From: a virus
Reading direction: 5' to 3' (one strand)
Length of the DNA: 40,865 bases
IMG/VR virus record: IMGVR_UViG_3300032288_002266
Coordinates: 1-40,865 of that record
Position 1 is the first letter of the stretch. Each line of letters opens with the position of its first letter. Shown piece by piece: positions 21,634-23,532 of this stretch. A model generated the notes under the pieces. That model had not been told where the DNA came from and ran no database searches. It worked only from the letters and a program-made list of their open reading frames with translations. The translations under genes were made by a program, and so were the position numbers.

Positions 21634-21761
21634 TCTTGCCCTGTCGCAAGACCCGGTTTGAGACCCGGATACAACGATGCAGAATTATAAACAGCCTCCA
21701 AATCCCTCGCCAGCCGGTTGCATCACCGGGTCTCAACTGGCGGTGGGTTTGGGGGCTTTTT
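21634..21761 (+). ncRNA. Structured leader with terminator hairpin before replication genes
   Basis: The 186-base gap holds a 6-bp hairpin (21634-21639/21646-21651), a direct repeat GACCCGG (21650-21656, 21662-21668), and a 21-bp nearly continuous stem, 21693-21713 with 21737-21757, ending in TTTTT (21757-21761). The stem has one mismatch and three G-U pairs. The hairpin loop carries CCGGGTCTCAA (21726-21736), perfectly complementary to TTGAGACCCGG at 21658-21668. This is either an attenuator controlling the initiator gene 19 bases downstream or the 3' end of a small RNA. No strong promoter is seen; TATTAT at 21614-21619 is a possible -10. Confidence 0.65.
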
Positions 21762-21780
21762 GTTGCTATGATTTCAAGCC

Positions 21781-22470
21781 ATGAGGATTAGAACCATCAA
21801 ACCAGAGTTTTTTACACATGAAGCTCTATTCGACGCGGAAATGGAATTTAAGCTACCGCTGCGAATTGCGTTCGTCGGCTTGTGGTGCGCCGCCGATAGG
21901 GAAGGACGGTTTCGATGGGAACCTCGCCGCCTTGGGATTCAGATCATGCCATATGATAAGATGGACTTTTCACGCGTGCTTGACGCGTTAGTAACGCGTG
22001 GATTCATCCGTCAATATCGCGTCAATGACGCGGTTTTTGGGTGCATCCCGTCGTTCTCGCGTCATCAAGTGATTAACAACCGCGAGCGGGAAAGCGATTT
22101 GCCGGAACCTCTGGATTTCAACGACATCGACGCGTGCCCCACGCGTGCCCCACGCGTTGACGACGCGGGGAAAGCGGAAGGGAAGGGAAGGGAAGGGAAA
22201 GGAAAGGAACAGAAGGGAAGGGGAACACGCGACGAGCTACGCTCATACGCGGTCGAAATTTCCCTTCCTGACTCAGACGGTGATTTCTTTTTCGATCACA
22301 TGGAGGAAGGCGGATGGACACGCAGCGGTCAACCAATCAAAGATTGGAGGGCGGCTATGAGGAAATGGAAAGCGGCGGGATGGCTTCCTAGCCAAAAAGC
22401 ATCCCAGACCAAACACGCCGCTTACGCCAACGGCTACAACGAACAAATTCCACTTCCGCCAGCACTATGA
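21781..22470 (+). CDS. Replication initiator / replisome organiser, 229 aa
   Basis: The N-terminus MRIRTIKPEFFTHE followed by LRIAFVGLWCAADREGRFRWEPRRLGIQI is the winged-helix start of many phage replication proteins (O/DnaD-like). LDALVTRGFIRQYRVN and the HQVINNRERESDLP segment follow. Residues about 118-150 are a Lys/Gly/Glu linker encoded by a homopurine tract, and the C-terminal 70 residues form a small domain. The next gene is an AAA+ helicase loader, as expected. The gene body contains phased ACGCGT arrays, so it probably carries the origin. Confidence 0.82.
   Translation: MRIRTIKPEFFTHEALFDAEMEFKLPLRIAFVGLWCAADREGRFRWEPRRLGIQIMPYDKMDFSRVLDALVTRGFIRQYRVNDAVFGCIPSFSRHQVINNRERESDLPEPLDFNDIDACPTRAPRVDDAGKAEGKGREGKGKEQKGRGTRDELRSYAVEISLPDSDGDFFFDHMEEGGWTRSGQPIKDWRAAMRKWKAAGWLPSQKASQTKHAAYANGYNEQIPLPPAL
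21972..22168 (+). repeat. Two arrays of ACGCGT at exact 11-bp spacing (candidate iterons)
   Basis: ACGCGT occurs at 21972, 21983 and 21994, and again at 22130, 22141 and 22152, with a near copy ACGCGG at 22163; each step is exactly 11 bp. A weaker pair TCGCGT 22017 / ACGCGG 22028 keeps the 11-bp step. The second array includes two identical 11-mers ACGCGTGCCCC. Eleven is not a multiple of three, so the protein sequence does not explain the period; binding sites on one DNA face are inferred. Confidence 0.8.
22167..22225 (+). repeat. Homopurine tract with GGGAA repeats
   Basis: Almost pure purine on the plus strand, interrupted only by C at 22175 and 22210; the longest pure run is 22176-22209, built from GGGAA/GGAAA units. 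It follows directly on the ACGCGT array inside the initiator gene and encodes a Lys/Gly/Glu linker. It may help unwinding or form unusual structure. Confidence 0.75.
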
Positions 22471-23156
22471 ACAGCCTCGACAAATTCATCAACAGCCTCG
22501 ACGAACTGATCGAGAAGGCGCCAGATTCTCGAGAACCCGAACAAACAACCCATCAGCTTGAAGCAAGAAAGCCAGAGCCTCAAGTAGCGCTTGAGGGATG
22601 GGAACAGCGGTGGAGAAAAGCGGAATCTCAGCCAACAGGCGACCAGTGGCTTGATGCATTCGACAAGGCCAAGCGCGTGATCGAGCGAGGAAGCATCCTG
22701 ATTCTCCACGGGACGCGAGGCGCGGGGAAAACCCGGATGGCATACGAGGCCGCAATTTCTGCCGCTTTGCCAAAGGACAAATCCGGACATTTCGACGGCA
22801 TCAGGACACATCGCAAGACCACCGCCAGATACACGACGGCAATGGCGTTCTTCCTCGATGTTCGCGCCACATTCTCCAAGAAAGCCAGCAAGACGGAGCG
22901 CGACATCGTGGAGTCATTGACCGACCCCGCTTTGTTGGTCATCGACGAAATCCAAGAGCGCAGCGAATCCGCATGGGAGAACCGGCTACTCACTCACGTT
23001 CTTGATTCCCGCTACGCATCAATGCGCCCGACCATCATCATTGCCAACCTGACATCCGCCGAGCTGGCCGCTTCGCTTGGACCATCAATCATGGACAGAA
23101 TCCACGAAGGCGGCGGGCACATAGAGTTTACGTGGCCTAGCTACCGCCGCGCATGA
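22467..23156 (+). CDS. DnaC/DnaA-like AAA+ helicase-loader ATPase, 229 aa
   Basis: Walker A GTRGAGKT at residues 82-89 and Walker B LLVIDE with Asp160-Glu161, followed by a sensor-like RPTIIIANLT. The layout ALPKD...FFLDVRATF before Walker B is typical of DnaC/IstB-type loaders. The N-terminal 60 residues form helices that probably contact the initiator or helicase. No helicase or primase gene is visible in the phage, so the loader presumably recruits the host DnaB. Confidence 0.88.
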   Translation: MNSLDKFINSLDELIEKAPDSREPEQTTHQLEARKPEPQVALEGWEQRWRKAESQPTGDQWLDAFDKAKRVIERGSILILHGTRGAGKTRMAYEAAISAALPKDKSGHFDGIRTHRKTTARYTTAMAFFLDVRATFSKKASKTERDIVESLTDPALLVIDEIQERSESAWENRLLTHVLDSRYASMRPTIIIANLTSAELAASLGPSIMDRIHEGGGHIEFTWPSYRRA

Positions 23157-23209
23157 AGCGCAAGGTTGCGCCGATCCTTGAATACATGCTCCGAAAACTG
23201 AACCAATGA
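23153..23209 (+). CDS. 18-aa basic mini-ORF between loader and DnaA-IV-like gene
   Basis: Reads MKRKVAPILEYMLRKLNQ. Both ends overlap neighbouring genes by ATGA, giving an unbroken coupling chain. It may only relay ribosomes. Confidence 0.4.
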   Translation: MKRKVAPILEYMLRKLNQ

Positions 23210-23532
23210 CAACGACCGCAAATCCCCCAAGCCCCTACCAAATCCTGCACGCCGTTGAGATGGCAACCGGCGTTCCGACGTTCGCGATCCTGGCAGACAA
23301 CCGGCTTCAGGCGACGAGCTACGCCCGCTTCCTTGCAATGCTCATGGTCAAGGAGCTTCGCCCGTGGTCAACGAACCTCGACGCGGCAGTAGCGGTTGGC
23401 AAAAAGGATGCCGGAACCGGCAGGCATGGGCTGATGCGAGCCGCTTACCTACTGGCCAACGACGAGCAGTTTAAGGCTGCTTACGCCAAGGTGAAAGCCA
23501 TGATCGCCGCGCCCGAACCCTTGCCGCTCTAG
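23206..23532 (+). CDS. Stand-alone DnaA domain-IV-like DNA-binding protein, 108 aa
   Basis: The order PYQILHAVEMATGVPTFAI, then LQATSYARFLAMLMVKEL, then VAVGKKDAGTGRHGLMRAAY, mirrors the DnaA C-terminal domain: the basic-loop helix, the R-x3-R/A-x-Q-x-AM helix, and the signature loop equivalent to GxxDHTTVxHA. No ATPase domain is attached; the preceding gene supplies one. Probably binds the phage origin or host DnaA boxes. Family recognition is from pattern only. Confidence 0.68.
   Translation: MTTTANPPSPYQILHAVEMATGVPTFAILADNRLQATSYARFLAMLMVKELRPWSTNLDAAVAVGKKDAGTGRHGLMRAAYLLANDEQFKAAYAKVKAMIAAPEPLPL

Follow-up and report, generated by a model that had tools for sequence, protein, structure and literature searches.

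The segment 21972-22225 is, with high probability, a phage replication origin embedded in the gene of its own initiator, combining initiator iterons with a tract for DNA opening and helicase entry. It lies in a virus record from IMG/VR that may be incomplete; the window, meaning the whole stretch analysed, covers 40,865 bp. Comparison of relatives shows the order of iterons and tract and ties both consistently to the initiator gene. The initial annotation had placed a candidate origin here, and the proposal is supported by the initiator homology of the gene and by the DnaC-like helicase loader next to it.

The initiator gene (21781..22470, plus strand) encodes a protein of 229 aa. This protein matches the PHROG 16167 profile, 'replication initiation protein', over aa 1-113 (E=2.7e-40), as well as several related PHROGs, and gave no match in a Pfam search. 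An AlphaFold2 model based on 38 homologues (mean pLDDT 81) comprises a confidently predicted winged-helix-like N-terminal domain (aa 1-110), a disordered linker (about aa 112-148), and a small helical C-terminal domain (aa 150-216). The closest PDB folds to the N-terminal domain are those of the RepA N-terminal domain (4pt7/5kbj), a weak match (E 0.017), and the RepA matches include one Rep-DNA complex. The gene is adjoined downstream by that of the loader, an AAA+ ATPase (22467..23156, plus strand; phrog_50, E=1.2e-35; IstB/DnaC-type ATPase). A small protein encoded at 23206-23532 is weakly similar to the DnaA C-terminal DNA-binding domain. Immediately upstream of the initiator start, a strong terminator-like hairpin with a T-run (21693-21761) forms a possible attenuator, and folding of 21640-21785 gave z = -3.3. 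A conserved attenuator was rejected, with a terminator-like hairpin present at just 4 of 46 loci, and an Rfam search returned no match.

ACGCGT occurs six times in exact form in the window, always within this gene, in two triplets with an 11-bp step that reproduce the positions given by the initial annotation. Array 1 (21972..21999; sites at 21972, 21983, and 21994) falls in the codons of helix 63-72 (DFSRVLDALVTRG), which the model suggests is likely the recognition helix. Array 2 (22130..22157; sites at 22130, 22141, and 22152) is a tandem of ACGCGTGCCCC in the linker codons (DACPTRAPRV), 158 bp from array 1 start to start; neither array is assigned a strand. The degenerate copies reported earlier all exist, likewise without strand. 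The fourth copy of array 2, ACGCGG (22163..22168), continues the 11-bp step, whereas TCGCGT (22017) and ACGCGG (22028), a pair 11 bp apart at 22017..22033, lie off the step, beginning 23 rather than 22 bp after 21994. Among 5,000 synonymous-codon shuffles of the gene, the maximum was four ACGCGT sites, and any 11-bp triplet appeared in only 11 shuffles, compared with six sites and two triplets in the gene itself. For the whole window, dinucleotide shuffles predict 13.1 sites against the six observed. Avoidance specific to ACGCGT elsewhere in the genome was discarded as an explanation; depletion is as strong or stronger for many other 6-bp CpG palindromes, so the absence of the site outside the gene reflects general palindrome avoidance.

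The pattern extends to 46 non-redundant homologues (<95% identity) that were picked by protein similarity and not by motif. Together they contain 265 ACGCGT sites, where codon shuffling within each gene predicts 37; pairs at 11 bp number 141 against a prediction of 1.3, and triplets 60 against 0.02. Spacings concentrate at 11, 22, 33, and 44, and 45 of the 46 genes carry at least one pair at 11 bp. The initial annotation had named loss of the phasing under a conserved protein as evidence against an origin; the relatives keep the 11-bp phasing. Its argument that the period breaks the codon frame and indicates selection on DNA also holds. The sites use all three reading frames (84, 109, and 72 in frames 0, 1, and 2), and their codons are nearly fixed: Thr is ACG in 84/84 cases within sites against 127/515 elsewhere in the same genes, and Asp is GAC in 80/80 against 410/705. 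At array 1, the 34 genes with the DFSRVLDALxTRGF segment use CGC for Arg in 33, with CGT for the Arg eight codons on, GCG for Ala, and ACG for Thr in all 34.

Both arrays are present in subfamily A. Subfamily B (TSEDIVxLTPLARL...) has the linker array and lacks array 1, which indicates that two arrays are not essential. Strict helical phasing between arrays 1 and 2 was rejected, the distances ranging over 135-161 bp with no clear phase. The isolates Vibrio phage 1.176 and VvAW1 have ACGCGT sites in the linker; the distant homologues HK639, F10, JBD44, Fyn8, U8, and NL have no ACGCGT array. In the distant subfamily of F10, Fyn8, and JBD44 (L149, L152, and L156), the linker carries CTGATTCC-type repeats (LIPDSL) whose coding strand is pyrimidine-rich.

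Behind array 2 lies a pentanucleotide purine tract of GGGAA/GGAAA units (22167..22225, plus strand), with its purines on the coding strand, encoding GKAEGKGREGKGKEQKGRG. The initial annotation had described a purine strand of about 58 bases following the arrays; this length is correct, with two pyrimidines (C22175 and C22210), and the tract is in fact a 5-bp repeat that also occurs in other initiator families. Tandem Repeats Finder reports 9.4 copies of the 5-bp unit. In each of the 46 homologues, no 45-nt stretch of the gene is richer in purines than the linker window close to array 2. Autocorrelation there has maxima at lags 5 and 10 and a low value at lag 3, and the best lag is 5 in 41/46 tracts, compared with 3/43 controls, the most purine-rich stretches downstream. 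Codon choice in the 46 homologues follows the purine strand, with Arg as AGR in 53/54 cases in the tract (188/1035 elsewhere), Glu as GAA in 144/150 (449/924), and Gly as GGR in 199/209 (288/669). Since the period is 5 nt and not 3, the EGKGR peptide repeat results from translating a DNA repeat of 5 nt, and the best explanation of the linker as protein is that it is little more than translated origin.

Together, these codon statistics show that iterons and purine tract are under selection at the DNA level and not at the protein level alone. Selection on the DASxTRxxRV peptide and the EGKGR linker, or expansion of a simple repeat, could in principle make the DNA pattern secondary; the peptide motifs are indeed conserved, and slippage can expand low-complexity linkers. 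However, synonymous sites are nearly fixed, the pattern is lost on codon shuffling, and periods of 11 and 5 nt misfit the reading frame. This explanation, already disfavoured, is extremely improbable.

The tract is G-rich and not A+T-rich. Unwinding elements are mostly A+T-rich, and opening of a G-rich tract would need active help. Several candidate principles for the tract were considered and rejected. A G-quadruplex motif occurs in 22/46 family A/B genes, 1/58 family D genes, and 0/3 DUF1376-type genes, and is thus not general. Hairpin formation by the tract as single-stranded DNA is weak. Opening through an R-loop with the purine-rich transcript is a possible route that leaves the 5-nt period unexplained; F10, Fyn8, and JBD44 have the pyrimidine-rich repeats instead.

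The frequency of the motif was compared with controls. The exact ACGCGT triplet was found in at least 119 viral stretches, compared with 24 for the 12-bp spacing control and 5 for the AGCGCT control. A simple motif test places 100 of the 119 triplet stretches among the matches listed in homologues, and four others (L024, L059, L067, and L087) appear to be truncated or fragmentary homologues. ACGCGT arrays also lie in different initiator-like genes (L004, L025, L036, L084, and L099), including the DUF1376 proteins L036 and L084. Among 563 bacterial genomes from two classes, the two seed genomes contained the triplet and none of the other 561 did.

The control matches, for both the 12-bp spacing and AGCGCT, themselves often lie in linkers of other phage initiators. 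Family D was traced from one such match, and the families described here are selected ones rather than a census. In family D, 50 non-redundant genes contain 274 CGTNACG sites against 87 expected. These sites follow a 12-bp step and gather in two clusters, one around nt 120-180 and the other around nt 420-540. AGAAG pentamers follow these iterons, and lag 5 is best in 52/58 cases. Some members, including phage epsilon15 (L347), have GTCCGC repeats instead and keep the AGAAG tract. A family D structure model gave no meaningful match in the PDB. In DUF1376-type genes, ACGCGT arrays are paired with GGACA repeats. The plan of winged helix, iterons, pentanucleotide tract, and C-terminal domain therefore recurs while the iteron changes, and these two further phage initiator families with partly different iterons point to a general design. 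More tentatively, and with less than even confidence, the pentanucleotide purine tract (GGGAA, AGAAG, GGACA, and kin) may be a distinct origin element common to different initiator families, a coding-embedded, strand-specific signal for opening and helicase entry in a DnaA-trio-like role, which a shared factor would read five nucleotides at a time, with iterons diverging for each initiator.

With respect to the reader of ACGCGT, co-occurrence and the predicted winged helix suggest that it is likely the initiator itself, because the initiator is the constant partner of the arrays, the hosts are diverse, and the neighbours P0002 and P0003 are inconstant. Hosts of prophage homologues include alpha-, beta-, and gamma-Proteobacteria, Acidobacteria, and a Phycisphaerales bacterium, a diversity which makes a phage-encoded reader probable. 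A different DNA-binding protein of phage or host would be most improbable as the reader. The 23206 protein (P0003), which the initial annotation had offered as a possible binder, resembles the DnaA C-terminal domain weakly, and the arrays in other initiator-like genes might suit such a protein, but a homologue of P0003 is near the initiator in only 1/46 relatives (7/46 for P0002). The spread of hosts over several phyla, and the change of iteron along with initiator in family D, also argue against it.

It is also very unlikely that the arrays are mainly operators through which the initiator or another phage regulator adjusts copy number or the transcription of the gene that encodes it, the true origin then lying elsewhere. 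Palindromes repeated in a protein's own coding sequence could serve autorepression, and plasmid iterons can act both in replication and in autorepression. However, the arrays lie about 190-380 bp inside the gene rather than at a promoter, and operator function leaves unexplained the pentanucleotide tract behind the arrays in every homologue and the identical order in other initiator families. The GC-skew profile, proposed earlier as a check, gives the origin no support, with no minimum at 21972-22225.

For the origin, we infer binding by the initiator, tract opening, helicase loading, and origin activity. The 21781 protein would bind ACGCGT through its winged-helix domain, and since the sites recur every 11 bp, protomers would align on one face of the helix. 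In the simplest model, one protomer per turn would build a cooperative, bending filament over each array, and looping or wrapping of the DNA may bring arrays 1 and 2 into contact. The complex would strain the adjoining homopurine tract until it opens, with help from negative supercoiling and perhaps from the gene's own transcription. Opening would expose the pentanucleotide-repeat strand, on which the DnaC-like loader (22467-23156) could place the replicative helicase; opening and loading at this place are suggested by analogy with lambda and SPP1.

The window shares with known intragenic iteron origins both repeats within the initiator coding sequence and selection at the DNA level. In pSK41, the origin lies within rep, with repeats in the middle of the gene that encode a linker dispensable as protein (PMC5703833). 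Its RepA, the closest, albeit weak, fold match noted above, resembles the 21781 protein in its winged-helix N-terminal domain, mid-gene repeats encoding the linker, and separate C-terminal domain (PMC5703833). It differs in its RepA_N domain and in its repeats, which are four Rep boxes. The window instead repeats ACGCGT every 11 bp, places a second array in the codons of the DNA-binding domain, and has a tract of purine pentamers behind. RepA_N (PF06970) had no Pfam match in the 21781 protein, which sets the window apart from RepA_N replicons.

In lambda, a strand-asymmetric purine region comes after the iterons (PMC5043065), and the lambda sequence itself shows it. Ori-lambda resembles the probable origin of the window in lying within the initiator gene, in this order of elements, and in having a helicase-loading gene next to it. 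As the initial annotation had pointed out, the iterons are unlike: lambda has four annotated 18-bp iterons at 20-24-bp steps, while here 6-bp palindromes recur at 11 bp. Its tract is A+T-rich without a 5-nt period, compared with a G-rich pentamer tract here, and its loader is P, compared with a DnaC-like AAA+ protein. The window thus lacks the lambda O pattern, in which 18-bp iterons spaced by roughly two turns of the helix accompany an A+T-rich purine tract.

Phage SPP1 has direct repeats (oriL) within gene 38, the gene of its initiator G38P (PMC6316719). It and other phage replisome organizers resemble the window in their intragenic direct repeats and in having a phage-encoded helicase loader with a DnaB-type helicase (PMC6316719). 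SPP1 differs in its AT-rich unwinding element and its two origins about 13 kb apart, and the description in PMC6316719 includes neither ACGCGT nor a pentamer tract. Family D phages (L262-L341; epsilon15) are alike in their two iteron clusters, in N-terminal-domain codons and linker, and their AGAAG pentamer tract; they differ in their iterons, CGTNACG (12-bp step) or GTCCGC, with no protein sequence relation to 21781 established.

By sequence and repeat type, the window system is not a member of the lambda O or RepA_N groups. The very probable intragenic origin is a known type of arrangement written in a new DNA code, and no description of ACGCGT phage iterons was found in the open-access literature. 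Within that literature, an ACGCGT iteron in phased copies, an array in codons of the predicted recognition helix, and the pentanucleotide tract as a common element appear to be new. If these assignments are true, a sequence rule, phased palindromes plus a pentanucleotide purine tract in an initiator gene, would locate origins in many uncultured phages and prophages, and the odd charged linkers of phage initiators (EGKGR, REEKR, and GQDRT) would be translated origin DNA. This would also raise the question of what reads the 5-nt repeated strand as a GC-rich origin opens.

The viral contig L002 carries an AT-rich 11-bp tandem, ATTAAACGCGT, at 478-506, with no ORF of at least 60 aa over it. A Terriglobus genome contig (L348, 1478-1787) has a purine stretch along with ACGCGT arrays and no intact initiator gene over them, perhaps a decayed prophage origin.
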